In this document: positions 7,413-39,957 of the stretch, one piece after another
Layout: each line of letters starts with the position of its first letter
Position numbering within the stretch: position 1 is the first letter of the stretch
Assembly (NCBI GenBank): GCA_001899635.1
Contig: MKVQ01000024.1
Location: forward strand, 62,001-126,000
DNA length: 64,000 nt
Source: Myxococcales bacterium 68-20
GTDB taxonomy: Bacteria; Myxococcota_A; Polyangia; Polyangiales; Polyangiaceae
Reading direction: 5' to 3'
The notes under the pieces: model-generated
Told to the model about the DNA's origin: nothing
Database searches by the model: none
What the model saw: only the letters and a program-made list of their open reading frames with translations
Translations under genes and position numbers: made by a program

Positions 7413-7605
7413 GCTATCGGGAGCCATGCGCGCGCGGGCAGGGGCCCTCGGCCCGGGGGCCCCGAGGGGAACACGCGCGGAGCGACGCCGAGCGAGGGGA
7501 CAATCCCAGCCACTCAGCGCGACTCAGCGCGACCTTGCCTCGAGCGAGCGCTCGTCACGCTCGACCTCGTCCGGGCGCTCGCTGTAGCGGCGATGGGACG
7601 ATCTG

Positions 7606-8361: not shown

Positions 8362-8527
8362 CATCGGCGGCGGCGCCTCGAATCGGCGCCGGACGCGTGA
8401 CGAGAGGAGGTCGCGTGACGAGGAGTCGCGCGGCCTCTTCTCGTATGGGGAGGCGACTTGGGGCCCGCGCCCCGACCACCCGAAACGTGGGCCCCCGGCC
8501 GCGTTGCCCGAAGGGCTCAGGCCGAGA

Positions 8528-9019: not shown

Positions 9020-9116
9020 GGTGTCAGCCTAGCGTCTCGTCGCGTGCTCGAGTCAGCGACTCGTCGACGGCCCAGTGGTCCAGCGCGTCAGGGGCGCCAT
9101 GCTATGCCGTCGCCCC

Positions 9117-9746
9117 ATGGTGGATCCGGACTGGCTGCACTGGACACGGGAGCTCCAAGCGATCGCGCAGACGGGGCTCGCGTTCGTCCGCGACCCCTAC
9201 GACCGCGAGCGCTACGAGATGGTGCGCTCCCTCGCATCCAGGATGATGGCGGCACAGACGGCAACCCCAGCCGAGCGGATCGAGGCTCTGTTCGAAGGCG
9301 AGAGCGGATACGCCACTCCGAAGGTGGATGTCCGCGGAGCCGTGTTCGACGACCGAGGCCGTGTGCTGATGGTGCGCGAGATCGCGGACCACGGGAACTG
9401 GACGCTGCCTGGAGGTTGGGCCGACGTGAACCTCACGCCGGCGGAGAACGTCGTCAAAGAGGTGCGCGAGGAGAGTGGCTTCGAAGTGCGCGTGCGCAAG
9501 CTCGCGGCCGTCTGGGATCGCACCCGTCAGGGGCATCCGCCTGCACCGTTCTCGTGCTGCAAGTTCTTCTTCCTCTGCGACCTCGTCGGGGGGAAGGAGG
9601 CGACGAGCATCGAGACGTCCGAGGTGAAGTGGTTCCGCGAAGACGAGCTGCCCGAGGACATTTCGCTTGCACGGGTGCTCCCCGGCCAGGTCCGACGCAT
9701 GTTCGCGCATGCGCGTGATGCCTCGCTTCCGACCGAGTTCGACTGA
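9117..9746 (+). CDS. Nudix hydrolase with N-terminal Hydrolase_N-type domain
   Basis: A 209-residue hydrolase of nucleoside diphosphates linked to another group X. The N-terminal [34 protein letters not shown] is the small helical domain found in the ADP-ribose-type subgroup. The Nudix box occupies residues 99-122 ([19 protein letters not shown], then EESGF); the usual Arg before the first Glu pair is Lys, a conservative change. Substrate not determinable (ADP-ribose or CDP-choline are usual for this architecture). The ATG at 9117 is preferred because the domain starts directly there. Confidence 0.88.
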
Positions 9747-9784
9747 GACGAACAGCGATCACCACGAGCGCCTGGCGCCGGCCC

Positions 9785-9838
9785 GGATGGTAGGGCGCGA
9801 GAGGTCGGAGGAACGGCCGGGGTTGCCGATCCTGCCAA
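9785..9838. promoter_or_regulatory. Putative AraC-type operator, autoregulatory site (box 2)
   Basis: The segment begins GGATGGTAGG, continues through GAGGTCG and CGGCC, and ends GGTTGCCGATCCTGCCAA, 64 bp before the AraC-family start codon. It matches box 1 at 7356-7412 in roughly 45 of 54 aligned positions, including 17 of 18 in the last block. The orientation relative to the downstream gene is opposite to that at the leucine operon. Confidence 0.6.
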
Positions 9839-9902
9839 CGTGTACGAAGCTCTACGCGTGAGAGCTCGGCGTCCCTTGCCCCGTCGTCGCGCGGAGACGC
9901 CC

Positions 9903-10886
9903 ATGGCGTTCGTGCGTGCCATCGCGCTCGCATACGAGAAATACGGCCGCTCACCGGCGCGCGCGCTCGCCCGCGCTCGGATCACGCCGGCGCAGCTCCG
10001 GAGGGAGGACGCGCGGATCGACGCCGAGCAGATGGAGACCATCTCGGCCACGGCGATGCAAGAGCTCGACGACGAGGCGCTCGGCTGGTTCTCGCGGCGG
10101 CTGCCGTGGGGCACGTACGGGATGCTGTGCCGTGCCTCGCGGGGCGCGCCGAGCTTGCGGGTGGCGCTCAAGCGCTGGTGCCGCCACCACGCGCTGCTCA
10201 CCGACGACGTCCTCTTGCGGTTCGACGAGGAGCGCGAAGGCGCGCAGCTCTGGATCGAGGAGCGCCGCGACCTCGGACCCATGCGCGAGTTCTGTCTCCT
10301 CACGAGCCTCCGCTACGTCCACGGCTATGCGTGCTGGCTCGTCGACTCTCAGCTTCCGCTCACCGAGGTCACGTTTCCGTTCTCGCCTCCGCCCCACGCG
10401 GGCACCTACGGGTTTCTGTTCCCGGGGCCGGTGCGCTTCGATGGAGCAGTCGCCAGCCTGGTCTTCGATCCGCGCTACCTCGTCCTGCCTCCGAAGCGGG
10501 ACGAGCACGCGCTCGACCTCATGCTCGAGCACGCTCTGCCGCTGACGGTTCGTCAGTATCGCCGCGACCGGCTGCTCGTCGATCGCGTGCGCGCATACCT
10601 GAGCGAGCCGAGCCATCACCCCGCGACGGCCGAAGCGGTGGCGTCGGCGCTTCACGTCTCGGTCCGCTCACTTCACAGGCAGCTCGCGAACGAAGGCGCC
10701 TCGCTCCAGGCGATCAAGGACGACGCCCGCCGTGATCGCGCGATCGCGCTGCTTCGCCGCACGGACATCCCGATCAAGCAGCTCGTGCGCATGATCGGAT
10801 TCAAGAACGACAAGAGCTTCGCCCGCGCGTTCAAGGCCTGGACGGGCCAGAGCCCGTCGGAGCTCCGCGCGTTGGCGCAGGAGTAG
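9903..10886 (+). CDS. AraC-family transcriptional regulator (arabinose_bd-type N-domain)
   Basis: A 327-residue DNA-binding regulator. The start at 9903 follows GGAGA at a good distance and begins exactly at the N-terminal sensory domain (MAFVRAIALAYEKYGRSPAR...). The middle RLPWGTYGMLCRASRGAPSL, then ALKRWCRHHALL, resembles the ligand domain of OruR/ArgR-like AraC proteins. The C-terminal domain has two helix-turn-helix units (ATAEAVASALHVSVRSLHRQ; IKQLVRMIGFKNDKSFARAF) and ends with the usual F-x-x-W-T-G-x-S-P-x-x-LR. A box shared with the leucine operon lies just upstream, so control of leucine catabolism plus autoregulation is proposed. Confidence 0.9.
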   Translation: MAFVRAIALAYEKYGRSPARALARARITPAQLRREDARIDAEQMETISATAMQELDDEALGWFSRRLPWGTYGMLCRASRGAPSLRVALKRWCRHHALLTDDVLLRFDEEREGAQLWIEERRDLGPMREFCLLTSLRYVHGYACWLVDSQLPLTEVTFPFSPPPHAGTYGFLFPGPVRFDGAVASLVFDPRYLVLPPKRDEHALDLMLEHALPLTVRQYRRDRLLVDRVRAYLSEPSHHPATAEAVASALHVSVRSLHRQLANEGASLQAIKDDARRDRAIALLRRTDIPIKQLVRMIGFKNDKSFARAFKAWTGQSPSELRALAQE

Positions 10887-10943
10887 CGCGGCCCCGAGCG
10901 TGACCGCGTGGTGCGGGGGGCGTTCACGGAGCGCGGGCGGCGC

Positions 10944-13715
10944 TCACTTCTTGGTGCCGAGAAGCACCTTCGTGAGCGGGCGGGCGCCTTGCTCGCGGAG
11001 GGCGGAGCACAGCGAGACCGCCTCGAGCGCGCTCGCGAGCCCGCGGGAGGCGCCCTCGATGCTCGCGGCGCGCGGGGTGTAGAACTTCGCGCGCTCGTCG
11101 GCCTCGGCGCTCGAGCAGCCGACGCCGGCAGCGCGGACCAGCTGGGCGCCGAGCCGGCCCGGGAGCTTCTTGCGGAGCTCGTCCCAGTGGCCACGGACCC
11201 ATGCCTCGGCGATCGGACGAGACCTCCGTCGGCCGAAGGCGGCGCTCAGCACGTAGCGCATCTCGCTCTCGTCGATCGCGCTCGTCAGAGTCACGTCGAG
11301 CGCCTTCTTCAAGAGCGCCTCATCGTCGAAGCCCATCATCGCGCGGATGGCGACGATGCGGTCCTCGCGGTTCTTCGCGCTCTTCGCTGCGGCGACGAGC
11401 GCGGCGAGGCGAGGCTCGGCTGCCTTTCGCGACGCGAGGTCGAGCGCGACCGCGCCGGTGTCTGCGTCGACGCTTGCGGGATCGGCGAGCCACTTCGTCG
11501 CGATCTCGTCGGCTTCGCGGAGCGTGGCGTCGTCCTCGACGGTGTCGCCCATCGCGATGAGCATGCTCGTGCGTACGAGCGCCTCGTCGCCGGAGCCGTC
11601 ACTTCCGGTCTTCGCCCCGGTCTTGGCTCCGGTCTTGGCCTCTGCCTGCGCCGGAGTCGGCGCCCAGCCGAGCGCCTTCTTGCGCTTGGCGAGACGCGCG
11701 AGCGAGAACTTGCGGAACGCCGCGCGGGCGTCCTCCTCCACGACCGTGTCGCTCATCGAGGTGAGGATGCGCACCACCTGATCGACGACCTGCCGCGTAT
11801 CGTCGTCGTCGAACGCGGGGAGGATCCGCAGCATCGCCTTGGGCTCGAGCGCGCCGCTTCGGACAGCTGCCCACGCGTTGGAGAGGAGCGAGATGCGCGC
11901 TCTCGGATCGAGCTCCTTCTTGTTCTCCGCGAGGCGGACGAAGTCCCGCTCCGAGAGCGAGAAGCGGTAGTAGCTCGAGCCCCAGTTCGGATGAACGTAG
12001 GCGGGGCAGTGGCCCTTGCCGGCGAGGAGTGACGGTGCACCCGCGACGAGCTCGGTGCACGTGTCCTTCTTCTCTCCCTGCGCGCGCACGCAGACCGGGA
12101 TCGTCCACGCGCTGTCGATCTGCTCCGGCAGCTTCGACCCGAGCGGGCGCCACGGCTGCGAGGCGAGCTCCACGTGCCAGCGGCCCCCGCGCTCGCACTC
12201 GAAATTCGCCGACACGTCCGGGACGCCGGGCTTGTCGAGGTACGACGACGCCATCTGGGTGACGTCCTTCCCCGACGACCGATCGAGCGCGGTGAGGAGA
12301 CGGTCTGCCTGCACGCTCTTGAAGGCGTTCTCCTGGAGATAGGCGCGCACGCCGCGCTGGAAGGCGTCTTCGCCCACCCAGCGCTCGATCGTCGCGATGA
12401 GCGCGGCGCCCTTGTCGTAGGTGATCCCGTCGAACGCCTCCTGGGCGTCGCCGACGGAGACGACGGGCTGGCGGATCGCGCGGGCAGCGGCGAGCCCGTC
12501 GAGGTCCATCACGTCGTGGGCGTCGACGACGGCGTCGAGGCGCGCGCCGTAGGCGGGCCGCCACTTGTCGACGATGCGCGCCTCCATCCAGGTCGCCATG
12601 CCCTCGTTCAGCCAGAGGTCGTTCCACCACGTCGCGGTGACGAGGTTGCCGAACCACTGGTGCGCGAGCTCGTGCGCGATGATGAGCGCCTGGCTGCGCC
12701 GCGCGCTCACCGAGGCGCGAGTCGGCTCGAGGAGGAGGCGCTCCTCGCGGAACGTGACGAGGCCGGCGTTCTCCATCGCGCCCGAGCGGAACTGGGGTAC
12801 CGCGACGATGTCGAGCTTGTCGTAGGGGTAGGGGATGCCGAACCAGTCGGCGAGCGCGTCGACGATTCCGCCGGTGGCCTCGAGGGCGAGGTCGCCCATC
12901 GCGCTCTTGCCCTTCGTGGTGATGATGCGGATCGGTGGCCGGGTGAAGCGCGTCGCCTCCTTGATCTCGAGATCGCCGACCGCGAGCGCGACGAGGTAGG
13001 TAGGGAGCGGCTGCGTGCGCGCGAAGCGGAAGCGCGTCTTGTCGCCGATCGCTTCGCGCGCGGCCTCGGGCGCGTTCGCGACCGCGATCATCGAGCGAGG
13101 CACCGTCACCGAGACGTCGAACGGCACCTTGAAGCTCGGCTCGTCGAAGCACGGGAACGCGCGGCGCGCGTCGGTCGGCTCGAACTGGGTGTACGCGTAC
13201 GAGCTCGTGCCGTCCTTCACGCGGTAGAGGCCGGACAACGAGTCGTCGAATGGTGCCGTGTACTCGAGGACGAGCAGCGCGCGGCCAGGCGGCAGTGGCG
13301 TGGGGAACGCGAGGACCAGCTCCTCGGGGGCCTTTCCTCCCTGCGCCGTGCGCGTCGAGACCGTCGCGAGCAGGCCCGGCTGCGGAGGCGGGAGGAGCGC
13401 GCGTGCCGTCGTGATGTCGAGCGAGCGGCCGTGCAGGACGACGAACGACGTCTTCTGCGGGACGTCGATCTCGATCCGTACGACCCCGCTGAAGCGCGGC
13501 TTGTCGGGATCGACGTCGAGATCGAGCGAGTATCCGACCGGCGTCGCGAGCGCTGGAAGCCGACCGCTCGCGAGCGGCGCCGGAAGCGGAGTCGGCGCCT
13601 CGTTCGCGACGGTAGGAGGGCGGGGCGATGAGGGCGGCGGTTCTCCGGGACACCCGGCGAGGAGCAGCGACGTCACCACCGCGCACCAGAAGCCCATCTG
13701 AACCGGAGGCCGCAT
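10944..13715 (-). CDS. M1-family zinc aminopeptidase lipoprotein
   Basis: A 923-residue aminopeptidase N-like enzyme that removes N-terminal residues from peptides, probably on the cell surface. The signal sequence ends with lipobox LLLAGC. GAMENAG (exopeptidase motif) precedes HELAHQWFGN with zinc ligands His348 and His352, and the third ligand Glu371 in WLNEG. The C-terminal 400 residues are helical and repeat-like, as in the ERAP1-type domain, and contain a low-complexity AEAKTGAKTGAKTGSDGS linker. The start is the ATG at 13715; a GTG three codons upstream is equally possible. A second, hypothetical exported-size gene lies close upstream in the same direction. Confidence 0.92.
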   Translation of the reverse strand: MRPPVQMGFWCAVVTSLLLAGCPGEPPPSSPRPPTVANEAPTPLPAPLASGRLPALATPVGYSLDLDVDPDKPRFSGVVRIEIDVPQKTSFVVLHGRSLDITTARALLPPPQPGLLATVSTRTAQGGKAPEELVLAFPTPLPPGRALLVLEYTAPFDDSLSGLYRVKDGTSSYAYTQFEPTDARRAFPCFDEPSFKVPFDVSVTVPRSMIAVANAPEAAREAIGDKTRFRFARTQPLPTYLVALAVGDLEIKEATRFTRPPIRIITTKGKSAMGDLALEATGGIVDALADWFGIPYPYDKLDIVAVPQFRSGAMENAGLVTFREERLLLEPTRASVSARRSQALIIAHELAHQWFGNLVTATWWNDLWLNEGMATWMEARIVDKWRPAYGARLDAVVDAHDVMDLDGLAAARAIRQPVVSVGDAQEAFDGITYDKGAALIATIERWVGEDAFQRGVRAYLQENAFKSVQADRLLTALDRSSGKDVTQMASSYLDKPGVPDVSANFECERGGRWHVELASQPWRPLGSKLPEQIDSAWTIPVCVRAQGEKKDTCTELVAGAPSLLAGKGHCPAYVHPNWGSSYYRFSLSERDFVRLAENKKELDPRARISLLSNAWAAVRSGALEPKAMLRILPAFDDDDTRQVVDQVVRILTSMSDTVVEEDARAAFRKFSLARLAKRKKALGWAPTPAQAEAKTGAKTGAKTGSDGSGDEALVRTSMLIAMGDTVEDDATLREADEIATKWLADPASVDADTGAVALDLASRKAAEPRLAALVAAAKSAKNREDRIVAIRAMMGFDDEALLKKALDVTLTSAIDESEMRYVLSAAFGRRRSRPIAEAWVRGHWDELRKKLPGRLGAQLVRAAGVGCSSAEADERAKFYTPRAASIEGASRGLASALEAVSLCSALREQGARPLTKVLLGTKK

Positions 13716-29068: not shown

Positions 29069-30280
29069 CTACGGCATGCAGTGGTCGCCCATGCAGTGGC
29101 CGGACGCGCAATCGGAGTTGGCCATGCAATGTTGGCCGTTGTTGCACGGCGTCGCGCAGCTGCCGCCGCAATCGGCGTCGGTCTCGTCGCCGTTCCTGAC
29201 GCCGTCACTGCACGTCGGCGCCAGGCACGTCTGCGCGTCCTCGTCACAAACGGTGCTGTCGCACTCTCCGTCCCACGTGCACCGGCGTCCGGGGGCGCAC
29301 GGACACGCGGACCCGCAGTCGATGTCGCTCTCCCCGCCGTTCTGCACCCCGTCCGAGCACGTCGGGTTCAGACACTTCCCCGTCGCCGAATCGCAGACCA
29401 GGCTCCAGCAGTCGCCGCCCACGAGGCAGCTCTGACCCGTCTGACACTTCGTATCGCAGGGGCCGCCGCAATCGATGTCGGTCTCGCCGCTGTCCTTCGC
29501 GTAGTTGTAGCAGCCGGGCGCCCGGCAGCGCCTGGTCGTGTCACCCCAGCGCGGCGCGGAGCAGATGCCTGTCGCGCAGTGCTCGCCGAGGTTGCACTTC
29601 TTCTCCTCCGCGCACTTCTCGTTGCAGGTGCCCCCGCAGTCGAGGTCCGTCTCGTCGCCGTTCACGACGCCGTCGTCGCATGCGGGCGCCTGGCACGTCC
29701 CCGAAGCGCACACGCCGCTCTGGCAGTCGGTCTCCGTCCGGCAGGCCTTGGTCGCGACGCACGGCGCGCACATGCCTCCACAATCGAGATCGCTCTCGAA
29801 GCCGTTCTTCTGCCCGTCGCCGCAGGTCGCGGGGATGCACTTCGCGTGCGCTCCACAAAGGCCGGAGGCACAGTCCGTCCCCGCAACGCACGCCATCCTG
29901 AGCTCGCAGGGGTCGCAGCCTCCGCCGCAATCTAGGTCGGTCTCCGTGCCGTTCTTCCGCCCGTCGTCGCAGGCAGGGGACCTGCAGAATCCCGCGACGC
30001 AGGCGCCGTTGACGCAATCGGCGTCGACCTTGCAGAGCTTCGAATCGTCGCAAGGCTTGCAGCTGCCGCCGCAGTCGACGTCGGACTCTGCGCCGGACTT
30101 GATGCCGTCGGTGCACGACGACTCGACGGGCGCCCCAGCGTCCGCCTCGATCAGGTTGGTCGCGTGCTGCGTTGGGTCGTCGCTGCAGCCGACCGCCCAA
30201 AGGGGAGAGAGCGCCACCGTCAGGAGAAGGCCGCTCAAACCAGCCGCGTATTCGGAACGTCCCGCCAAACTGCTCGTCAT
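29069..30280 (-). CDS. Cys-rich lipoprotein with seven DCGG repeats
   Basis: A 403-residue lipoprotein (ATG at 30280 after a GGGAGGG ribosome site; lipobox WAVGC). The body consists of seven repeats of about 45 residues of the form C-x-DG-x2-NG-x-E-(S/T)-D-x-DCGG-x-C-x2-C, each followed by a shorter Cys-rich loop with 'DCxSGxC'. This design recurs in myxobacterial surface proteins and probably forms small disulfide-bonded modules outside the cell. It is the last gene of the leftward lipoprotein block, separated by 133 bp from the previous one, so it may have its own promoter. Confidence 0.8.
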   Translation of the reverse strand: MTSSLAGRSEYAAGLSGLLLTVALSPLWAVGCSDDPTQHATNLIEADAGAPVESSCTDGIKSGAESDVDCGGSCKPCDDSKLCKVDADCVNGACVAGFCRSPACDDGRKNGTETDLDCGGGCDPCELRMACVAGTDCASGLCGAHAKCIPATCGDGQKNGFESDLDCGGMCAPCVATKACRTETDCQSGVCASGTCQAPACDDGVVNGDETDLDCGGTCNEKCAEEKKCNLGEHCATGICSAPRWGDTTRRCRAPGCYNYAKDSGETDIDCGGPCDTKCQTGQSCLVGGDCWSLVCDSATGKCLNPTCSDGVQNGGESDIDCGSACPCAPGRRCTWDGECDSTVCDEDAQTCLAPTCSDGVRNGDETDADCGGSCATPCNNGQHCMANSDCASGHCMGDHCMP

Positions 30281-30413
30281 TGGCTCGAGCCCTCCCATCC
30301 GGCCGAATTGGGGCGTGATGGAATGATGGTTATGCGAAAGATGGGATTTGGATTCGATCGAATTCGAGGCGCGCGACGGGCGTATCTCGTTTCGTGACCT
30401 TGGCTTCACGGGG

Positions 30414-32228
30414 TCACTTGATCGGCGACGAGTAGTTGCTGATCGGGCGGAGGCCCGTGCCAGCGACGTAGCCGTAGCTGGAGGCCAGGCCCGTTCCCCA
30501 TACGGTGATCGCGAACGGCCCGTCGCTGTACGCTTCTTGCCGGCCGTACCCGCACTTCTTGTCGCCGAACGTCTGCTCGACGTATCCCTCGGTCAACTTC
30601 ACCCACGTATATTCGAATTCGCCGTTTGCGCCGTCTAGGGGTTGGAACGTGGTGACCTCGCCGGAGCATTCGAGGAAGACGGGCTTGAATCCGGTCTTCT
30701 CCTTCCGGCGTACGATGGCGAGCGACGTGTCCGGATACGTGTAGTCGGTGAAGAAGACGTAGCGATCGAGGAACTGGTCGGCCGGGGGCACGTTGACGAA
30801 GTCCGGATCGCCGGTCGTCAGCTGCCCGGTCCCGTTGCCGTACGACGAGCCGGTCATGTAGACCGAGACGTAGAACGGATGTTCCTTGTCCTGGCTCTTC
30901 ACGACGAAGACCTCGTCCGTGAAGAAGTGGACCGATTGCCCAGCCGAGAGCGTCTCCGGGGCACCGTTCGGGCGCGACGGCGCGTACTCGAGGACGGTGC
31001 CGTTCGCGGCACCGACCATCGTGTACGGCACCTTCTCGCGGAAGTCGGTGTCGAAGGTCTGGATGCGGGAGAGGAACGGTACGACCGCGTAGCGCGATCC
31101 CCATTGCGCGACGGCCGGGATCTGCTGGCCGAGCACGTCGGCTGCCGTCGCCGCGAGGAACGTCGCCGAGGAGCCGCCGAAGAGCCCGATCGGCTTGGTC
31201 GCAGAGATGGGTGACCCGGTCAGGTTCACCCGTGGCTGCATGATCTGGAAGACCTGCCCGCGAGACAATCGGTAGGTCTTGGGCTCGCCCTGGTACGCCG
31301 CCTCGGTCTCGGGGGTGGCCCCGATGTCCGCGTTCGGCGTGATCGTGACGTCGGTGTCATCCTCCGCGGCGACGATCTGGAGCCAGCGATGATTCGGGAC
31401 CTGCGCCCAGAAGTCGAACGGGAAGTCGAATGGGCTGACGGCGATGTAGTCGTTCCCCCAGGCGGATACCGGCAAGAGGAGCGTCGCCGTCGGGTACTTG
31501 CCGATCTCGCCGCCGTACGGGTAGCTCGCGTACGCTGCCACCGGCGCATCTGCCGTGATGCGGAACGACTTCGTGAGGACGGTGCCGTGGCGGATCGGAT
31601 CGAAGTCGAGAGCGGCCTTCGTGCCGGGCGGGCAGTGGACGACCGGGCTGCCCGGTGCGTCGTTCGCCGGAGATTGATCCGACAGGAGGACGACGGCGAC
31701 CTGACCTGCGGGGAGCGGCCCGGTCAGCGGCGTGTACGTCTCGGAGCTCGCGGCCCCCTGCCGATCGACGGTGTACGTCGAGCCGGCGATGTCGAGCGGC
31801 TTGCCGTCGTATTCGGCCGAGAGCGTGATCGGCCGGTCCCACGTGTTCGCGATGAGCGCGGCGAAGCATGCTCCGTTGACGCCGGTGGCATCGTCCGGAG
31901 GCAACGTCACGAACTCGCAGCCCGCAGAGCCTCGCTGGGCCTGAGCGGCGAGGCATGCGTCGACGCATGCTTCACCATTGCAACCCTGGTCCTGGTTGCA
32001 TTGCTGAACGACCGTCTCGGCACCCTCGCAGCCATCGAGCACCTGCTTGAGGTCGCGCGAGCAGTGCATCCCGCACTTCGGGGGCTCCCCGGCGTCGGGG
32101 TCGGCGAATTGCTCGTCCGCCGTGGTGAAGCCGCGATCGGTTGCGGAGCACGCGGCGACGGCGACGATGCCGGCGACGACCCCGAGGCCGCAGAGAAGCT
32201 TGCGAGACGTGTGATTGGAAGAGCTCAT
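30414..32228 (-). CDS. IgGFc-binding-type N-terminal domain lipoprotein
   Basis: A 604-residue lipoprotein with signal MSSSNHTSRKLLCGLGVVAGIVAVAAC. A short Cys-rich segment (CGMHCSRDLKQVLDGC..., GCNGEACVDACLAAQ) precedes a large beta-rich domain. That domain carries LKSF...APVAAYASYPYGGE, ATLLLPVSAWGNDYIAV and KPIGLFGGSSATFL, characteristic of the IgGFc_binding family first named in FCGBP. In bacteria the partner is unknown, but adhesion is the usual suggestion. It sits 12 bp downstream of the RCC1-like gene. The ATG at 32228 is preferred over a GTG at 32237 because of the AGGTGG upstream. Confidence 0.85.
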   Translation of the reverse strand: MSSSNHTSRKLLCGLGVVAGIVAVAACSATDRGFTTADEQFADPDAGEPPKCGMHCSRDLKQVLDGCEGAETVVQQCNQDQGCNGEACVDACLAAQAQRGSAGCEFVTLPPDDATGVNGACFAALIANTWDRPITLSAEYDGKPLDIAGSTYTVDRQGAASSETYTPLTGPLPAGQVAVVLLSDQSPANDAPGSPVVHCPPGTKAALDFDPIRHGTVLTKSFRITADAPVAAYASYPYGGEIGKYPTATLLLPVSAWGNDYIAVSPFDFPFDFWAQVPNHRWLQIVAAEDDTDVTITPNADIGATPETEAAYQGEPKTYRLSRGQVFQIMQPRVNLTGSPISATKPIGLFGGSSATFLAATAADVLGQQIPAVAQWGSRYAVVPFLSRIQTFDTDFREKVPYTMVGAANGTVLEYAPSRPNGAPETLSAGQSVHFFTDEVFVVKSQDKEHPFYVSVYMTGSSYGNGTGQLTTGDPDFVNVPPADQFLDRYVFFTDYTYPDTSLAIVRRKEKTGFKPVFLECSGEVTTFQPLDGANGEFEYTWVKLTEGYVEQTFGDKKCGYGRQEAYSDGPFAITVWGTGLASSYGYVAGTGLRPISNYSSPIK

Positions 32229-32240
32229 GACGGCCACCTC

Positions 32241-33632
32241 TCAGAACTTCACGGTGACGGGAGTCGAGTGCGGCTCGCCGTCTTTCGTTCCTTGCCCGAG
32301 CTGGCCCGCGTCGTTCGCGCCCCAGCAAGCGACCGCGCCCGACTTCAGGAGCGCACAGACAGCCGTTCGCGATGCCGCGACGCCGACGGCGTAACCAGCG
32401 AGCTCCGTCGCGGGCCGGAAGGCCATCGAGAATTTCGCCCCGGCATCCTCGGCGATCGCGAGCCCGCCGTAGCGGTTGTCGCCGGCGCACTGGACCTTGC
32501 CGTCGGTGAGGCGAGCGCACGTCGTCTCGCCGCCGGCCGCCACCTGCTGGGCCCAGGCGAAGCCCGTGTTCATGCTCGTCTTGGTCGGCACGAGCGCCAG
32601 ATCCGGGCTGCCCGTGCCGAGAGCGGCGTATTCGCTCCGGCCCCAGCAGTAGACCTCGCCGCGGACCACGGCGCATGCGCGTCCGTAGACCATGAGCGGA
32701 GGCTGCGGATACCCCGGCGGCTGGAACGTGGTGCTCGGCGTAGCCACGAGCTTCGTCACGTCGCGGAGATCGATCGGCAGCGGATTGGGATCGAGCTCCA
32801 TCGACGACGTGCGACTCGAGAGGTTGCCCCTGGGGCCGCCGACCGTTCCCCAGCTCAGGACTTCACCCTGCTCCGTCACCCCGAGGCTCGTGAACGAGCC
32901 GTGGGACGTTCGCACGATCTTCAGGCCAGCGAGGGGGGCGCGCGCGGGCGCTCCGAGGTTGCCCTCGGTCCTTCTACCGAGCTGAGCGGTGCCGTTGTAT
33001 CCCCAACACCACGTCTCGCCCGTCGCGAGGACGGCGCAGCCCACGCGGGGACCGATGTCGACGCGGACCGCGGGCCCCGGCAGCGCGACCGGCGCCGGCG
33101 TCGGATGCGGGGCGCCGTCGGCGACCACCGCGTCGGCTTGGAGCCCGAGCAGAGCGTCGTTGTTGTCGCCCCAGCACTTCACCGCTCCGCCCTTGACGAG
33201 GGCGCAAGCGGTCTTGCCGCTCGTGCTGAGCTGCTCGACGCCGTCGAGCCCTTCGACCGTGACGACCGAGGGTGCGTCGCCCGACGCGGGCGCACGGCCG
33301 AGGACGCCGGCAGCGTTGCCACCCCAGCATCGGGCCGCCCCGCTCTTCATGCGAGCGCAGAAGTGCTCGTCGCCGGCCACCAGCTCGACGGCGCACGGCT
33401 CCTCGGTGCACGTCACCGCCTCGTCCGCGGGTTCGAACGGCGGCCGCGGGATCGGCGGAGGCGGCGCAGCCTCTCCCGCCGCATCGGCGGTCGCCGTAGG
33501 GACCGGCGGCGCGGCCGCGTCGTCGTCGTCGCCGGAGGAGATCTCGCGACTCTCGGCCGTGCAGGCGAGCACGCCAGCACCGATCGAGGCCGTCGCGACG
33601 AGCGCGGGGATCCACGTATAGATACGCTTCAT
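32241..33632 (-). CDS. RCC1-like beta-propeller lipoprotein
   Basis: A 463-residue lipoprotein with lipobox VLAC near residue 24 and a Pro/Ala/Asp linker. At least six RCC1-type blades follow: HFCARMKSGAARCWGGN, TACALVKGGAVKCWGDN, VGCAVLATGETWCWGYN, ACAVVRGEVYCWGRS, TTCARLTDGKVQCAGDN and AVCALLKSGAVACWGAN. The conserved CxW pairs with CAL cysteines may lock each blade by a disulfide, suiting an extracellular location. Gene spacing of 11-12 bp on both sides places it in the lipoprotein operon. Confidence 0.87.
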   Translation of the reverse strand: MKRIYTWIPALVATASIGAGVLACTAESREISSGDDDDAAAPPVPTATADAAGEAAPPPPIPRPPFEPADEAVTCTEEPCAVELVAGDEHFCARMKSGAARCWGGNAAGVLGRAPASGDAPSVVTVEGLDGVEQLSTSGKTACALVKGGAVKCWGDNNDALLGLQADAVVADGAPHPTPAPVALPGPAVRVDIGPRVGCAVLATGETWCWGYNGTAQLGRRTEGNLGAPARAPLAGLKIVRTSHGSFTSLGVTEQGEVLSWGTVGGPRGNLSSRTSSMELDPNPLPIDLRDVTKLVATPSTTFQPPGYPQPPLMVYGRACAVVRGEVYCWGRSEYAALGTGSPDLALVPTKTSMNTGFAWAQQVAAGGETTCARLTDGKVQCAGDNRYGGLAIAEDAGAKFSMAFRPATELAGYAVGVAASRTAVCALLKSGAVACWGANDAGQLGQGTKDGEPHSTPVTVKF

Positions 33633-33643
33633 CGTTGGTGTCC

Positions 33644-34861
33644 TCACGGCCTCTTGTGCAAGGCGATGCCGTCGCCGACGACCCAGAAGTCCTCGTTGCT
33701 GATGCCCCACGCACCGAAGAAGTCGCTCCTCACCGGTGCGCTCGTCACCATGATGACCGCCTGCGTCCACTTCGTTCCGTCCCAGTGACGGAGGCGTCCG
33801 AAGTCGCCCACCTGCCAGGCGTCGTTGCCGGACGTTCCCCAGAAGAAGTGAGGATCGGACTCGTATTGCGGCCGGTAGACGAGCTCCCAGTCCGCTGCCG
33901 CGTACGGAGCCTTGCCACGGATGTACCGGTGGCGGCCGGTGTTCGACTCCGCTCCCAGCCAGACCGTACCGTCCGCCATGGCGCCCGCTCCCATGAGCGG
34001 CTTGTGACCGTACGGCCAGTCGCTGCCGTCGGGGAGCTGCATGCGGACGGGCTCGGTCGAGCCCGGGGCGATGCGGAACAAGACGGCGACGGGGTTCCAC
34101 TGATCGTCGATCCAAGCGCCGTGCACCCACGCCCCCGAGGAGGCCGTACCGAAGACGCCCATCGGCGCGATCGCCGGGTCCGGGCTCCACGACTCCACCT
34201 TGGGGACGCCGATCCCGACCTCACTCCAGCCCGCGGGGGCGCCGGCGAAGTGCACGACGCGACTGAGCAGCGCGCCGCTGGACGGATCCTGCGCCCCGCC
34301 GACCGCCCAGATGTCGTTGGGGCCCGAGCCCCAGACCGACGAGAGCGCGACATCGGGATTGCCCGGAAGATCGGCGACCGGCGCGAAGGCGAGCGTCGCC
34401 GAGCTGCTGCCCGTACCGTGAAGGAGTCCCGTCGAGCCGGCGATCCACACGTCGGTGGCGCCGCTGCCCCAGACGCTCACGAGGGTGGCGTCGGCGAGCT
34501 CTTGGTGGACCTTCCACTGGGAGCCGTCCCAACGGAAGATCTTCCCCTGCGCGCTCACCGACCACACGACGCCCGAGCCGTCGCCCCAGACGCTCGTTAG
34601 CGTCGCGTCCTCGGGGATGTCCGTGTGGCAGAAGTTCTGGTCGGAGCACTGGCGCGGGGTAGGGAGGCTCGCCTCCTCACCGGCGTCGTCCGTCGCGTCG
34701 ACCTCGTTCGCGGGCCCGGCGTCGCCGGTGAGCTTGTTCTCGGCGTCGTCGTCGACGACGCCGATCGGCACGTCCGAGGTGGCGCACGCGGCGCCGGCCA
34801 AGACGAGAGCCGACGAGACTCCGACGGCGGCGAGGATCGGTCCTCGATGACGAACGCTCAT
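33644..34861 (-). CDS. VWGSG/VWAVG repeat lipoprotein (second of a tandem pair)
   Basis: A 405-residue exported protein, with signal MSVRHRGPILAAVGVSSALVLAGAAC. Propeller-like repeats of the form 'LxSVWGxGxxDVWxVGxxGxIxHWDGxxW' recur (TLTSVWGDGSGVVWSVS, TLVSVWGSGATDVWIAG, ALSSVWGSGPNDIWAVG, FGAWGISNEDFWVVGDG). Such repeats are common in myxobacterial secreted proteins and resemble photosystem-stability/BNR propellers. Its start codon overlaps the previous stop (TGATG), and the previous gene encodes a paralogue. Confidence 0.83.
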   Translation of the reverse strand: MSVRHRGPILAAVGVSSALVLAGAACATSDVPIGVVDDDAENKLTGDAGPANEVDATDDAGEEASLPTPRQCSDQNFCHTDIPEDATLTSVWGDGSGVVWSVSAQGKIFRWDGSQWKVHQELADATLVSVWGSGATDVWIAGSTGLLHGTGSSSATLAFAPVADLPGNPDVALSSVWGSGPNDIWAVGGAQDPSSGALLSRVVHFAGAPAGWSEVGIGVPKVESWSPDPAIAPMGVFGTASSGAWVHGAWIDDQWNPVAVLFRIAPGSTEPVRMQLPDGSDWPYGHKPLMGAGAMADGTVWLGAESNTGRHRYIRGKAPYAAADWELVYRPQYESDPHFFWGTSGNDAWQVGDFGRLRHWDGTKWTQAVIMVTSAPVRSDFFGAWGISNEDFWVVGDGIALHKRP

Positions 34862-36126
34862 CACGGGCCTCCCGGGGCCGGCGCCTTGGCGCCTTCGTAG
34901 TGCAAGACGGTGTGCTCGCCGACGACCCAGACGTCGTCGGCCGAGCTCCCCCAGATTCCGTAAAGGCTCGGCTCGTTGCCCTGGGGGAGCTGCGCGGTCG
35001 ACGCGGTGAACTCGAGGCCGTCCCAGTGGAGGATCGTCCCGTCGTCTCCCACCACCCAGATGTCCCTCGGACCCGTTCCCCAGATCGCGCGGAGGTTCGC
35101 GTTCGTCGGCGAATCGATGATCTGCCAGCGAAGGTCGTTCGCCTGGAACCGTCGAATCGTGCCGTGGTCGCCGACCGCCCAGACGTCGTCGGCCGAGCTG
35201 CCCCAGATCCCGCGGAGGACGACGGTCGCTTGGCTGTCGACCACCGTCCAGGCGAGCTTGTCGCCTTTGGTGTCCACGCCCGGAGCAGCCGGACGACCGC
35301 GCATCGTCTTGCCCGCCTCGATCGCCGAGCCCTGGTAGTTGCCGTTGGTCCTTCGATTGTCGACCAGGATCCAGACGTCGTCGGGGGAGCTTCCCCAGAT
35401 GCCCGTGACGGTCCCCTTGAGACCGCCGACGCGAGTGAGCGGGTTCTGGCCCTCCGCCACGGTGCCGGCCTTCTTGACCAGCATGTTTCCGGAGGTCTGG
35501 TTCGGAGAGTCGTCCTTCGGAAGCGCACCGATGCGGAAGTCGTCCGGCCCGAACCCGAACATCACCGTCGTCGCGGTCTCGAAGTAGGGATCGAGGCTCA
35601 GGGGAGGGAGCCGCGTCCAGCTGACGGCGCCGTTCTTGAATCCGTCCGAGCGCATGATCGTCCGCGTGTCGCTCACGGCCCACACGTCGTTCGGACCGCT
35701 GCCCCAGACGGAGAAGAAGGTCGACTTGTCCGCGATCGGTACGGCCTTCCACGTGGCGCCGTCGTAGTGGACGACGGACCCTCGCGAGCCGACGGCCCAG
35801 ACGTCGGACTTGCTCGAGCCCCACACCGAGTTGAGACGTTCCGAGGAGCGAATGCCGGAGTCGACGACGCACCAGTCGACCTGGGAGCAGTCGGGGATGA
35901 CGGTGCAGCCCGGATCGCCGGCGTCGCACGCGGCATCTGCCGCGTCCGCGTCCGATGCGTCGGGAGTGGTGAGCGTGACGCCTCCGCCGTAATCGGGAAG
36001 GTCCCCGGGATGCTCGTCGCTCGTCGCGCAGTTCGCGAGGCCGCCCATCAGGCCGAGGGCCGAGCCCAGTCCGAAGAGGGAGGCGAACGAGCGAGCGGAG
36101 GAGAGTCGGGCGAGGGAGGGCTTCAT
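34861..36126 (-). CDS. VWGSG/VWAVG repeat lipoprotein (first of a tandem pair)
   Basis: A 421-residue paralogue of the gene that follows it. Signal ...GLGSALGLMGGLANC, an Asp-rich linker, then repeats: RLNSVWGSSKSDVWAVGSRG, FFSVWGSGPNDVWAVSDTR, VTGIWGSSPDDVWILVD, LRGIWGSSADDVWAVGDHG, LRAIWGTGPRDIWVVGDDG and LYGIWGSSADDVWVVGEH. The regular 'GIWGSS-DVW-VG' spacing suggests a closed propeller of six or more blades. ATGA overlap with the upstream Cys-rich gene. Confidence 0.85.
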   Translation of the reverse strand: MKPSLARLSSARSFASLFGLGSALGLMGGLANCATSDEHPGDLPDYGGGVTLTTPDASDADAADAACDAGDPGCTVIPDCSQVDWCVVDSGIRSSERLNSVWGSSKSDVWAVGSRGSVVHYDGATWKAVPIADKSTFFSVWGSGPNDVWAVSDTRTIMRSDGFKNGAVSWTRLPPLSLDPYFETATTVMFGFGPDDFRIGALPKDDSPNQTSGNMLVKKAGTVAEGQNPLTRVGGLKGTVTGIWGSSPDDVWILVDNRRTNGNYQGSAIEAGKTMRGRPAAPGVDTKGDKLAWTVVDSQATVVLRGIWGSSADDVWAVGDHGTIRRFQANDLRWQIIDSPTNANLRAIWGTGPRDIWVVGDDGTILHWDGLEFTASTAQLPQGNEPSLYGIWGSSADDVWVVGEHTVLHYEGAKAPAPGGP

Positions 36127-37373
36127 CGCGGGAGCACTCCGGCGTCGTCCTCACAGCTCCTCGTGAGGCACTTCCCTTCGACGCACGGCTGTCCGAGGAC
36201 GCCGTCGCACTTGGCGCCGCACGCGCCGCAGTTGTTGGGATTGATCATCGTGTTGACCTCGCAGCCGTCGGACAGATCGCCGTTGCAGTCGGCCCAGCCG
36301 TCGTCGCAGGGATATTCGCAGCTCCCCTTGTTGCAGATGACGTCCTGGTGGGGACCGGCGGCCGGACAAGCGTTCACGCACGAACCGCAGTAGTTCGGGT
36401 CGTTGTTGAGGTCGCGGCAGCCACCACCCTGCTCGCCGGCGGTGCCACAGTCGGTCAGCCCGAGCCGGTCACACGTGTCGATGCACTTGATCTCCAGGCC
36501 GACGCGACCGCAGATTTGATCGGGGAGGCACTTGTTCCCGCACGCGCCGCAGTTCTCCATGCTCGTCACGGGCGTCTCGCAGCCCGACCATTCTCCTTGC
36601 GGATGGTTCGGACAGTCCTTCATGTCCTTGTCGCAGTCGCCCCAGCCGAGCTGGCAGGCGAGGTTCCCGCAGACGCCGTTCATGCACTTCGCGCGTGCAT
36701 GTTTGTCCGTCATCGCGCAGCCGGCGAACGGGCCGTCCTCCGGGATGTACGGACACTGGCGTCCACATTCACCGCAGTTCAGGTCGTTCGTATTCAGGTC
36801 GACGCACCGCCCGTTGCAGTCCGTGAACCCTGCGGGGCAGCCGCATCGACCCTCGATGCAGGGGTCGCCGTCGTTGCACTTGTTGCCGCAAACACCGCAG
36901 TTCATGGGGTCGCTGTAGACGTCGACCTCGCAGCCGTCGTCGAGAATCCCGTTGCAGTTCTGCAGCTTCATGATCGGGTCTTCGAGCGCGATCATGCACT
37001 GGAAATCACACCTCCCCTGGACGCACTGGCCGATCATGCCAATCGGCTCGTAGCTGTCGCAGCTCACACCGCATGCACCGCAATTGTTGCGGTCGTTCAT
37101 GAGGTTGATTTCGCACTTGTACGTCGGCTTGTCCGTTTCGCACGTCGTGAACGGGAATGGGCATTCCGTGGCCACGCATTGCAACAGCGTGTCGGGATCC
37201 AGTGATGCCTCGACGCCGCCGTCGGCGGGCGATGAGAAGCCCCCGTGCTCCGAGTCCCGTGACTCGGCGACGGAGACGGTGCTCGAACAACCGGCGAAGA
37301 GCCAGGCGAGCAGCGCACAGGAAACCGACAAGACTGCCGCCTTGGCGCTGCGCCCAGCGATGCGTCGATACAT
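36123..37373 (-). CDS. Cys-rich lipoprotein with NNCGACG repeats
   Basis: A 416-residue lipoprotein. The ATG at 37373 follows AAAGGAC at 8 bp; an upstream ATG at 37412 would overlap the anti-sigma-like stop as ATGA and is the alternative. Lipobox LFAGCSS. The mature part is dominated by repeats of 'DP/NxxNCGACGxxC' (DRNNCGACGVSC, DPMNCGVCGNKC, NDLNCGECGRQC, SMENCGACGNKC, DPNYCGSCVNAC, NPNNCGACGAKC) alternating with 'GCEV' segments. This is the myxobacterial 'stigma' type of disulfide-rich module. Surface location inferred. Confidence 0.83.
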   Translation of the reverse strand: MYRRIAGRSAKAAVLSVSCALLAWLFAGCSSTVSVAESRDSEHGGFSSPADGGVEASLDPDTLLQCVATECPFPFTTCETDKPTYKCEINLMNDRNNCGACGVSCDSYEPIGMIGQCVQGRCDFQCMIALEDPIMKLQNCNGILDDGCEVDVYSDPMNCGVCGNKCNDGDPCIEGRCGCPAGFTDCNGRCVDLNTNDLNCGECGRQCPYIPEDGPFAGCAMTDKHARAKCMNGVCGNLACQLGWGDCDKDMKDCPNHPQGEWSGCETPVTSMENCGACGNKCLPDQICGRVGLEIKCIDTCDRLGLTDCGTAGEQGGGCRDLNNDPNYCGSCVNACPAAGPHQDVICNKGSCEYPCDDGWADCNGDLSDGCEVNTMINPNNCGACGAKCDGVLGQPCVEGKCLTRSCEDDAGVLPR

Positions 37374-37408
37374 ATCGGGCTGTCCTTTCGCAGAAGCCGT
37401 GACAGGGG

Positions 37409-38296
37409 TCATGGCTTCGATTCGAAGTCGGGATTCGCCGAGCCGCCGCCCGAGGCGAGCGCGGTCAGCGGTTGACCGACGGCCTTCTCCAGGTGGGCGA
37501 CGTACGGCGTGCGTGGGAACCGGCGGAGAACGGCGCGGGCGCGGAGGAGGGCATCGTCCTTGCGACCGAGCTTCGAGAGCGCGTCCACCGCGACGACCTC
37601 ACGCTCCTGCGTGAGCTCGCCGCTCGGGAACAGCGCTGCATGCTCGTCGGCCAGGGAAAGCGCTCGCGCAGGGTTCGACGTGAGCGCGTCCTGCGCACGG
37701 CGGACGAGCAAGAGCTCCGGGGTCGACGTCTTTGCCGTGCTGCCCTCGGACGCCCGGCGGGGCGTCGAGTCCGAACCTGCCGTCGCGGCACGCGGCTTCG
37801 GCGCCGCTGACGGTAGCGCGTCGATCGAGACCGCGGCGATGGCGTCGCCACCGCGCTTCGGTGCGCTGTCGCCCGTCCCGCTCGCAGGCCGCGCTTCAGG
37901 TGCACCCGTGTTCGGCATGTTGCCGGACGGACCGACTCGCTCCTGCGTCGCCGGACCGGCGGCCGGCGCGATGAGCGGCGCCTCGACCGAGGTCGAGGTG
38001 GACGTGGCGCGCCACGCGAGCAGCGAGCCTGCGGCAACGGCGAGCGCAAACGCACCAGCCTTGTAGTAGTAGCCGACCTTGTTCGCGACCCGGGCCGTCG
38101 CCGTGGGGCCGGCGACTCGCGAGGTCTCCGATGGCGATGCCGGATCGAGCGCGCCCGCAGCGACGAGCCGCTTGGCGATCCGCTGCACGGCGTCGGGGCT
38201 CGGCGTGCGGCTTCGCGTCGTGCGAACGAGCTCCTGAAGCTCTCCCGCGTCGGCGTCGCCAGGACTCGTCGGAGAATCGGTGGGAACAGTCTTCAT
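37409..38296 (-). CDS. Membrane anti-sigma-like protein partner of ECF sigma
   Basis: A 295-residue single-pass protein. The N-terminal cytoplasmic part contains ELVRTTRSRTPSPDAVQRIAKRLVAAG, followed by one membrane helix (YYYKAGAFALAVAAGSLLAW, residues 75-95). A Pro/Ala/Ser linker and a C-terminal TPR-like helical hairpin (LLLVRRAQDALTSNPARALSLAD, ...DALLRARAVLRRFPRTPYV) complete it. No HxxxCxxC zinc anti-sigma motif. The position, overlapping the sigma gene by ATGA, is the main reason for proposing anti-sigma or sigma-signalling function; this pairing is common in myxobacteria. Confidence 0.7.
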   Translation of the reverse strand: MKTVPTDSPTSPGDADAGELQELVRTTRSRTPSPDAVQRIAKRLVAAGALDPASPSETSRVAGPTATARVANKVGYYYKAGAFALAVAAGSLLAWRATSTSTSVEAPLIAPAAGPATQERVGPSGNMPNTGAPEARPASGTGDSAPKRGGDAIAAVSIDALPSAAPKPRAATAGSDSTPRRASEGSTAKTSTPELLLVRRAQDALTSNPARALSLADEHAALFPSGELTQEREVVAVDALSKLGRKDDALLRARAVLRRFPRTPYVAHLEKAVGQPLTALASGGGSANPDFESKP

Positions 38297-38835
38297 GGAG
38301 CCTCTTTGATCGCCTTGGCGAGCTCGCGGCGCGCTGCGTAGAGGCGCGCGTACGCGGTGGAGAGCTGGCAGCCGACGGCCTCGGCAACCTCGCGCATGGG
38401 CATCTCCTCGACGTCGTGGAGGAGAAAGATGGTCCGCTTGTCTTCGTCGAGCGTCTCGAGCACGGACGCCAGCCGATCGACCTCCATCCCGGCGGCCGGG
38501 TCACGGCTGTGGCTGCTCTCGGGGACCTCTTCGACGGTGCGTTCGTGCCGCCGGTGGCTTCGACGTCGATACGCGGCGGCACATCGACGCGTGATCGCGT
38601 AGAGCCAGGCCCGTGGGTGTTCGACCTTCACATCGGCGAGGTGACGATGCGCGACGAGGAAGACCTCCTGGGTCTGGTCTTCGAGGTCCCCTTCCGCGAC
38701 GCCGAAGTGTCGGAGGCTACGCCATACGAAGTCGATGTAGCCGTGAAAGAGAGCTTCGAATGTCATGGGCGTGGAAGCCTCGCCTTCAGGGGCTTCCAGC
38801 GCGCTGCTGATGACGCGAACGAGCGATGCGTTCAC
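38293..38835 (-). CDS. ECF-type RNA polymerase sigma factor
   Basis: A 180-residue sigma factor. Region 2 (TFEALFHGYIDFVWRSLRHFGV, LEDQTQEVFLVAHRHLADV, PRAWLYAITRRCAAAYRR) and region 4 (LASVLETLDEDKRTIFLLHD, EEMPMREVAEAVGCQLSTA, YARLYAARRELAKAI) are complete, with no regions 1 or 3. The start could be the GTG at 38835 or the ATG at 38766, which begins right at region 2. The 60 bp upstream, before the end of the previous gene, are unusually AT-rich (a TTATAAAAATC stretch) and may hold the operon promoter. It probably drives the following lipoprotein genes. Confidence 0.92.
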   Translation of the reverse strand: MNASLVRVISSALEAPEGEASTPMTFEALFHGYIDFVWRSLRHFGVAEGDLEDQTQEVFLVAHRHLADVKVEHPRAWLYAITRRCAAAYRRRSHRRHERTVEEVPESSHSRDPAAGMEVDRLASVLETLDEDKRTIFLLHDVEEMPMREVAEAVGCQLSTAYARLYAARRELAKAIKEAP

Positions 38836-38895
38836 AGCGGGCTATAGTGCTCGTGCCCTGAGTTTTTCTAAGCGTGGCCTGTCGATTTTTATAAG

Positions 38896-39957
38896 TTATG
38901 GAAACTCGTAACTAATACCAACCGTCAGCCGGGCTCCCAGCAGCGACGATTGATGCAGGCGGAACGTCCTCCTGCCCTCGGTCGCTTCGAAGACGTCCCG
39001 GACGAGGGCGACCTCTGCTTGAGGGAGGATCTCGAAGTGCACGCGGGGCGCGAGCGGTGCTCGTACGAGCACACCTCCGCCCGCGAGCGCCATCGGGCGG
39101 GCCGCCGCCTTCACGAGTTGAAATCCGCTGGGGGCCGTCCGGAGGATGCCTCCACGAAGGGCGAGCACGGGCACGAGCTCGACCTTCGCGGCGCGAAGCA
39201 TCGTGACCCCGGCCATGGCCGTCGTGCTCAAGAGCTGGAACGCGACCACACCCCGTCCGGCGCGCACGGACGCGCCGGCCTCGAAGCTCATTTCGAGCGC
39301 GACGAGGAAGCGCGAGCGCAACCAATAGCTCGTCCGCAAGCCTACGCCCCCGCCGGCCTGCGGAAGGATCCCGACCGACGCGACCCCGACCGCGCCGAGC
39401 GCGCGCAGCGAAGGGAGCGTGGGCTCCGCATCTGCAGCGAGCGCTGCTCGGGCCGGACCTGGGGGCGGACGGCGAGGGGACGGCGGGGGGGGCGGTAGCG
39501 CAGTGGACGTCGCCTCTACGGCCGCGCTCGGCTCCGGCGGTCCGACCGGCGCCGGCTCGAACGACGACGGGCGGACGACGGAGATCATCGTGGCGAGCAC
39601 GAGCGCCGCCGGCTCTTCGATCGCCCGACACTCGTGGCCCTTCACGCGTAGCTCGCGTTCGCCGACCTCCGCTCCCGTAGCGTCTTTCACCAGGAAGGTG
39701 ACGACGAAGGCTTCTCCGTCCGCGGACACCGTGCCGCGCACGAAGAGGTCCGGTGAAGCTTCGGTCTCGTCCTCGCCGAGCCTGGTCCGCGTCGCCGCGA
39801 CCATCTCCTCGCGCGAGGGGCAGCCCTCGGGAGCGCTCCAGGCGAGGTCGAATGGAGCCGCGCCGGCCGTCGTCGCCCACGCAGCGCAGGCGATCCACGC
39901 GCGGACTGCCGTCGTCGACCTCCACCTTCGATTGCGCGCGCCGCCGTCCGGTCCCAA
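38896..39957 (-). CDS. Hypothetical exported protein upstream of the sigma operon
   Basis: A 353-residue protein. It has no in-frame ATG or GTG near the beginning, so TTG at 39957 is taken as the start, which leads into a signal-like VRAWIACAAWATTAGA. The N-terminal half has FDLAWSAPEGCPSREEMVAATRTRLG and LRVKGHECRAIEEPAALVLATMISVV, a pattern seen in many myxobacterial genes of unknown function. A Pro-rich linker follows, and the C-terminal half looks like beta strands of a membrane or surface barrel (GVGLRTSYWLRSRFLVALEM...LTVGISYEFP, ending in F-P). It lies 60 bp upstream of the sigma factor, same strand. Confidence 0.65.
   Translation of the reverse strand: MGPDGGARNRRWRSTTAVRAWIACAAWATTAGAAPFDLAWSAPEGCPSREEMVAATRTRLGEDETEASPDLFVRGTVSADGEAFVVTFLVKDATGAEVGERELRVKGHECRAIEEPAALVLATMISVVRPSSFEPAPVGPPEPSAAVEATSTALPPPPPSPRRPPPGPARAALAADAEPTLPSLRALGAVGVASVGILPQAGGGVGLRTSYWLRSRFLVALEMSFEAGASVRAGRGVVAFQLLSTTAMAGVTMLRAAKVELVPVLALRGGILRTAPSGFQLVKAAARPMALAGGGVLVRAPLAPRVHFEILPQAEVALVRDVFEATEGRRTFRLHQSSLLGARLTVGISYEFP

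Follow-up and report, generated by a model that had tools for sequence, protein, structure and literature searches.

Over a hundred copies of a sigma factor-headed lipoprotein operon in one Myxococcales genome, with regulatory and exported parts of separate history

Introduction

Paralogous surface systems that each sit beside their own sigma/anti-sigma pair are familiar from FecIR-type signalling and from the glycan-utilisation loci of Bacteroidetes. The vmp system of Borrelia hermsii combines a single expression site with some 60 silent genes (PMC6011951). Very large sigma factor complements are on record too, with 109 sigma factors in Sorangium cellulosum and more than 115 extracytoplasmic function (ECF) sigma factors in Gemmata obscuriglobus (PMC4598750). 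The operon considered here lies in a 64,000-nucleotide stretch of contig MKVQ01000024.1 of Myxococcales bacterium 68-20, called the window throughout, and comprises an upstream gene (U), an ECF sigma factor (S), an anti-sigma-like protein (A), a Cys-rich protein (C), two propellers (P1 and P2), an RCC1-type protein (R) and an IgGFc-binding-domain protein (I), with a DCGG-repeat gene (D) following. The window's own genome is G000, other G numbers denote genomes of relatives, and L numbers denote loci fetched from relatives.

As in the FecIR and Bacteroidetes systems, each surface operon here stands beside its own sigma/anti-sigma pair, but no TonB receptor or FecR match was found among 17 U and 24 A proteins, the cargo is homologous across copies, and regulators and cargo have unlinked histories. 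The likeness to vmp (PMC6011951) is that recombination copies blocks of surface lipoprotein genes next to a fixed expression region; the differences are that here the sites number more than 100 and every one has an ECF sigma factor to itself, that the blocks hold five genes, that the joint is intragenic, and that slow reassortment alone is seen. An extreme sigma factor number in a large genome is shared with S. cellulosum and G. obscuriglobus, whereas here 131 sigma genes of one family lie in one fifth of the genome, 125 of them heading an S-A-C run. A first-pass annotation of the window knew of no functional description of this gene set, and none of the operon or family turned up among the results listed by full-text searches of the PMC library, nor do ECF reviews, in the portions consulted, name such an operon.

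One operon in many divergent copies

G000 (11,892,454 bases in 52 contigs, 98.4% complete, 4.2% contamination) yields 141 matches to PF17517, the domain of I, three of them short fragments and nearly all with open frames, and 246 matches in a search with P2. The surroundings of the matches make up 106 joined regions totalling 2.44 Mb, one fifth of the genome, and family profiles were built from the first 53. Within these regions there are 131 S, 129 A, 133 C, 260 P, 143 R and 141 I genes. S-A-C starts 125 runs, 112 of which continue as S-A-C-P-P-R-I (102 exactly, 10 with extra genes behind); the 13 incomplete ones were left out of the 112-operon tests below, and the remaining runs are partial, orientation-split or located at a contig end, or consist of a single I, R, P or S gene. 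Members of the U family occur within 500 nt upstream of 109 of the 131 sigma genes and ahead of 97 of the 112 complete operons. Summed hits of all families, U included, amount to 1.25 Mb or 10.5% of G000, with overlaps and lone genes counted in. Complete operons are carried by 35 contigs, with spacings below 3 kb in 11 of 77 neighbouring pairs, and Sigma70_r2 has at least 150 matches in G000 (150 of 250 candidates scored, all matching).

Amino-acid identity among the 112 operons has a median of 0.25-0.40 in pairwise comparison, and no pair exceeds 0.9 in any of seven genes; the copies are therefore not an assembly artefact, and duplicated assembly was dropped as an explanation. The first-pass annotation had the seven genes from S to I right, and the set is far beyond chance, with 112 complete same-order copies in G000; the scattered homologues that it named as contrary evidence are not what was found, as most homologues keep the same order. 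What it missed were the copy number, the upstream gene U and a joint inside C.

Several variants of the unit were seen. A second RCC1-type gene stands behind I in six exact S-A-C-P-P-R-I-R runs of G000 and three of G003 (loci include C21:98596, C36:143597, C42:253341 and C49:145383 in G000, and L255, L257 and L263 in G003), and is retained in two ortholog pairs. Elsewhere S-A is directed away from C-P-P-R-I (C23:240265-248904, C4:437675-446035 and C44:191790-201326 in G000; L234 and L237 in relatives). Lower-scoring IgGFc_binding pairs or triples without the unit, at C9:49854-54818 and C4:487760-490601 of G000, are perhaps its ancestral context.

Two parts with unlinked histories

The operon divides into two parts, termed here the socket and the cassette. 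To the socket would belong U, S and A, the presumed promoter before S and the stretch of C that encodes its signal peptide and linker; the remainder of C would form the cassette together with P1, P2, R and I, a single block of genes for five predicted lipoproteins. Identity matrices and nearest neighbours were compared across the 112 complete operons, or the 97 with U for comparisons that include it. Within the socket, rho is 0.43 for S-A, 0.45 for U-S and 0.38 for U-A, and among C, P1, P2, R and I it is 0.67-0.81; between the parts it falls to 0.02-0.09 for S or A against cassette genes (30 permutations, with maxima of 0.05-0.14) and to -0.07 to -0.01 for U against cassette genes (no permutations). 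Nearest neighbours tell the same story. S and A share theirs in 48 of 112 operons, U-S in 45 and U-A in 48 of 97, and cassette genes in 55-70 of 112, while across the parts agreement is 2-7 of 112 for S or A and 2-9 of 97 for U, with about 1 expected by chance.

FastTree trees, in which splits with support of at least 0.9 were taken as strong, agree with this picture: 59 of 60 strong S+A splits are contradicted by strong splits of P1-P2-R-I and just as many by strong splits of C, compared with control values of 7/40 (S by A), 12/70 (P by R-I) and 7/54 (C by P1-P2-R-I). In the 30 most similar cassette pairs (mean identity 0.69-0.84), S identity is 0.19-0.42, around a background median of 0.31. 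The window copy itself is an example, its S being 0.66 identical to that of C4_534521 and its cassette genes 0.22-0.38. This anatomy, and the reassortment of socket against cassette, can be regarded as nearly certain. The five exported genes, which the first-pass annotation had grouped as one set, do evolve as a block, which fits the expectation for parts working together. Its idea of a fixed set under joint control is not supported, as the unlinked histories of S/A and the exported genes mean that a given sigma factor is not permanently tied to a given protein set.

The joint lies inside the first exported gene

The boundary between the parts is intragenic. The 14 closest cassette pairs are 84-88% identical in DNA over 6.8-7.0 kb, and in 12 aligned copies similarity begins within C at the codons for YC-P/A-S, downstream of signal peptide and linker, and dies away at the stop codon of I. 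Cassette identity above 0.6 was found in 84 pairs, in 79 of which S identity is below 0.5. In these 79, similarity starts a median of 106 nt past the lipobox Cys codon (10-90% range 66-123, largest 907; 51 pairs, those without a recognised lipobox being left out) and ends a median of 7 nt from the end of the I profile (10-90% range -9 to 20, largest 1494). No conserved flanking or recombination elements were seen by eye at the ends in two aligned sets of 6 copies, and no recombinase gene belongs to the unit.

C was split into a 50-residue window ending 16 residues ahead of the first Cys motif and the 60 residues from that motif, which could be done for 104 of the 112 copies. In 65 socket-similar pairs the signal-peptide window scores 0.32 and the first 60 residues of the core 0.49; in 48 cassette-similar pairs the two values are 0.13 and 0.74, against backgrounds of 0.13 and 0.42. 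The start of C thus goes with the socket and its core with the cassette. When all pairs are taken together, the signal-peptide window has a rank correlation with the socket of just 0.06, which would be expected if signal peptides of distant copies are uninformative.

Upstream similarity also tracks the sigma factor. The 80 nt before the S hit give a mean score of 30.0 in 54 pairs with S identity above 0.6 and 16.3 in 101 cassette-similar pairs, against a background of 16.5, which places the presumed promoter with the socket. Counts of k-mers upstream of the 131 sigma genes returned mostly unspecific words, GAGCTC for example. One word, ACGATTT, stands in 20 of the 131 regions where 1.6 would be expected; it may belong to a promoter or to the coding end of U. 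A promoter consensus was dropped: patterns for sigma groups matched 3/12, 1/7 and 3/6 members (others 0/100, 0/105 and 0/106), and were derived from the same sequences.

Exchange between species, timing and constraint

Operons of relatives record the same reassortment. The best matches of S and I fall in different G000 operons for 10 of 19 and in the same one for 9 of 19. The clearest exchange is seen in L250 of G003, where positions 3102-5795 (U-S-A-signal peptide) are 70% identical to the G000 socket at C6:140062-137391 and positions 5819-12576 carry a cassette 92% identical to C16:411160-404403, the two matches lying 24 nt apart.

Synonymous divergence (dS) of P1, P2, R and I has medians of 0.23-0.28 across the 18 closest pairs of paralogs, which are non-independent and were chosen as closest, and 0.33-0.38 in five orthologous operons (four with G003, one with G006) picked from nine, the other four being left out. 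C, excluded from these ranges, has a dS of 0.48 in orthologs and, socket-derived start included, 0.54 in paralogs. The most similar cassettes are accordingly no older than the split from the sampled sister species and, by median dS, younger. The median ratio of nonsynonymous to synonymous divergence (dN/dS) is 0.34-0.50 for paralogous cassette genes and 0.18-0.39 for orthologs, S and A included, and lies below 1 in the seven genes examined (U left out); the genes of the unit are constrained, more loosely after copying.

In eight ortholog pairs similarity is confined to the unit: its upstream limit ranges from 47 nt before to 74 nt past the beginning of the U hit, and its downstream limit is no more than 15 nt from where the last gene ends. 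Clear synteny outside the unit was seen in none of the eight within the fetched regions, which reach at most 2.5 kb upstream, with L239 having an ambiguous hit 6 kb from the ortholog and L253 an upstream flank too short to judge.

Distribution among relatives

Judged by Lon protease, the nearest relative among the matches listed is Labilithrix sp. ACE_MYX5, at 77% in the best segment. PF17517 has 0-46 matches in 11 genomes of the same genus, compared with 141 in G000. Among 37 loci from six relatives there are 13 exact U-S-A-C-P-P-R-I runs, three more with an extra R behind, two with an extra A in front or an R between A and C, and two (L234 and L237) in which U-S-A is directed away from C-P-P-R-I; the rest are incomplete, several at contig ends, or have I without the other genes.

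For the wider family, 79 genomes were sampled with profiles built from G000 alone, A3 for P2 (19 rows) and A1 for A (24 rows). A3 exceeds 250 bits in no other genome of the sample, the best match elsewhere being a partial one of 113 bits (best 23 candidates per genome), and G005, G008 and G010, which with G000 represent the genus in the sample, have no A3 match. The A profile matches 73 of the 79 genomes and 47 of 48 genera (best 34 candidates per genome), G059, G071 and G075 among them, and also G030, where PF17517 was not found. In short loci from four other genera (0.9-2.2 kb of flank), no RCC1 gene was found beside an IgGFc gene. With A3 above 250 bits in G000 alone and A nearly everywhere in the sample, the cassette seems limited to some members of the genus, whereas the anti-sigma family extends much further.

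How the operon may work, and alternative explanations

The arrangement suggests that each socket would control whichever cassette is plugged in. U and/or A may perceive an extracytoplasmic cue, upon which A would release S, S would transcribe its own operon, and the cassette products would be synthesised and presented together at the cell surface as a single assembly; recombination would then alter, over evolutionary time, which cue commands which version. The first-pass annotation had likewise suggested a single surface complex, possibly serving adhesion or contact with prey. Judging from sequence comparison, the genome probably holds one surface lipoprotein assembly in more than a hundred versions under separate control, re-paired with that control at a standard joint. 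A bolder extension, tentative and somewhat more doubtful than not, is a combinatorial surface-identity library, in which more than 100 mutually insulated sigma/anti-sigma channels and more than 100 versions of a five-lipoprotein assembly would meet at an in-frame joint in C that re-plugs any assembly behind any channel, such that the wiring of environment to surface, for instance in prey, partner or kin recognition, would itself be the trait that evolves.

A number of observations weigh against this reading. Two of the ten socket-cassette rho values top their largest permutation (S-C 0.09 against 0.06, A-P2 0.07 against 0.05), and cross-part agreement of nearest neighbours is slightly above chance, a small excess expected from a few whole-operon duplications. 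The control contradictions show some tree conflict within the parts as well. That 9 of 19 operons of relatives keep their S and I matches together implies that reassortment is slow rather than continuous, and the lack of any pair above 0.9 identity gives no sign of present-day switching. The dS comparison draws on linked, selected pairs, and its gap is small for P1 (0.28 against 0.33). Just 78 of 112 C proteins have a lipobox-like N-terminus. Among the Pfam families listed for 24 of the 129 A proteins at E 0.01, there was neither FecR nor another anti-sigma domain. U has no recognisable relative, the window U having no Pfam match and its profile finding nothing in the PDB below E 0.5; the C-terminal half of U resembles an outer-membrane barrel by eye, and whether U acts as a sensor or a barrel is a guess.

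Three other explanations account for parts of the same evidence. Under a scheme like antigenic variation in relapsing-fever Borrelia, few units would be active and most would be silent archives whose cassettes are copied into active sites. Cassettes here are indeed clean-ended and copied between sites, and S-A hits are absent from the 4 kb around four of seven free-standing C-P-P-R-I blocks (one of the four is at a contig end), which also counts against the reading set out above. Yet vmp and vls pair silent promoterless copies with one expression site, whereas here an S-A pair of its own, presumably with a promoter, immediately precedes the C gene in 125 of 133 cases, and so most do not look like promoterless archives; moreover, the 14 closest copies have diverged to 84-88% in DNA, no protein pair is above 0.9, and the 12 aligned copies show no conserved flanking element by eye. 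Such a scheme is decidedly unlikely. The contrast between the huge copy number in one species and the 0-46 matches in 11 sisters, along with eight ortholog pairs similar within the unit alone and without clear outer synteny, could instead reflect selfish or neutral amplification, with units spreading by efficient copying and insertion at little benefit to the cell. This is quite unlikely given that median dN/dS is 0.34-0.50 for close pairs of paralogous cassettes and 0.18-0.39 for orthologs, that IgGFc frames are nearly all open and that the unit has no recombinase gene.

It could also be that the regulators are what moves, family-wide U-S-A modules having been repeatedly installed ahead of resident cassettes. 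The breadth of the A profile across 73 of 79 family genomes, G030 without PF17517 included, is in keeping with this, as is S-A pointing away from the cassette at three G000 loci and at L234 and L237. Identity to the nearest neighbour has a median of 0.69 for I and a lower one of 0.57 for S, though S and I diverge alike between orthologs; this weakly favours copying of cassettes. Installation of regulators is unlikely. Re-pairing of separately controlled assemblies at a standard joint is the preferred reading. On that reading, a genome of which about a tenth consists of divergent versions of a single sigma-headed surface operon, their regulators re-paired with different cargo, would amount to a natural experiment in modular evolution. 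With more than 100 sigma-promoter pairs and surface-complex variants in one genome, insulation of ECF sigma factors and rewiring of regulators to outputs would become directly testable. The operon also gives context to the PF17517, RCC1, VWGSG propeller and Stig1-like families, whose role there is unexplained.

Anatomy of the window locus

Table 1. Features of the operon in the window
Feature	Position	Strand	Remarks
U	38896..39957	-	signal-peptide-like start, two conserved Cys in the N-terminal domain, Pro-rich linker; socket
U-S gap, candidate operon promoter	38836..38895	-	upstream similarity follows S
S, ECF sigma factor	38293..38835	-	Sigma70_r2 and r4_2
A, anti-sigma-like	37409..38296	-	hydrophobic segment, Pro-rich linker, C-terminal TPR-like domain
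C 5' part: signal peptide, lipobox, linker; socket	37182..37412	-	joint placed here by analogy with other pairs
C core, NCGACG Cys-rich predicted lipoprotein, cassette start	36123..37181	-	PF04885 (Stig1) E 9.7e-10
P1, VWGSG propeller, predicted lipoprotein	34861..36126	-	19-member profile against Ycf48 structures; lipobox ANC by eye
P2, second VWGSG propeller, predicted lipoprotein	33644..34861	-	profile A3
R, RCC1-type propeller, predicted lipoprotein	32241..33632	-	RCC1_2 E 1.3e-34, RLD E 3.1e-47
I, IgGFc_binding-domain predicted lipoprotein; stop codon is cassette 3' end	30414..32237	-	PF17517 E 4.9e-92
D, DCGG-repeat predicted lipoprotein, passenger outside the conserved unit	29069..30280	-	15 other partial matches in G000

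Coordinates and Pfam matches agree with the near gap-free order of sigma factor, anti-sigma-like, Cys-rich, two VWGSG propeller, RCC1 and IgGFc genes given by the first-pass annotation. S, of 180 residues, scores 32.4 bits against PF04542 (cut-off 24), 43.9 against PF08281 (cut-off 25.7) and above cut-off against TIGR02937, and its stop codon is overlapped by the start codon of A (ATGA). I reaches 308.8 bits against PF17517 (gathering cut-off 25.6). The whole Cys-rich gene, both parts included (36123-37412), scores 94.5 bits against NF041328 (MXAN_6577-like Cys-rich), below the curated cut-off of 100. A Pfam search gave nothing above cut-off for A, P1 and P2 of the window; the profile of 19 P1 family members matches Ycf48 structures at E 4e-8.

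Prediction of the exported proteins as lipoproteins holds up across the 112 complete copies, a loose lipobox pattern near the N-terminus being commoner in C (78), P1 (90), P2 (94), R (101) and I (103) than in the controls S (1), A (5), inside P1 (2) and inside I (17). The hydrophobic stretch of A was recognised by eye in alignment A1 of 24 proteins, seven of which match TPR_14, and a BamD match has E 0.007. The Pro-rich linker of A carries a recurrent V-x-x-LP-x-A, possibly a docking site for a protease or partner. Among 17 of 134 U proteins there was no TonB-receptor Pfam match and one unrelated low-complexity match; one short sequence was left out of the U alignment (A2), and a single-sequence fold of U, with a pLDDT of 36.7, was unusable. 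A role in anti-phage defence was dropped, as nine window proteins had no match to a PADLOC defence model at E 0.001.

D starts 133 nt after the stop codon of I, as first annotated, and its repeats are present, six being exact DCGG and one DCGS by eye where seven DCGG had been counted. Its inclusion as a sixth member of the unit was dropped, there being no other hit among the open reading frames of the first 53 regions and 15 other partial matches genome-wide. D represents a separate family, either hitch-hiking with the operon here or unrelated to it.

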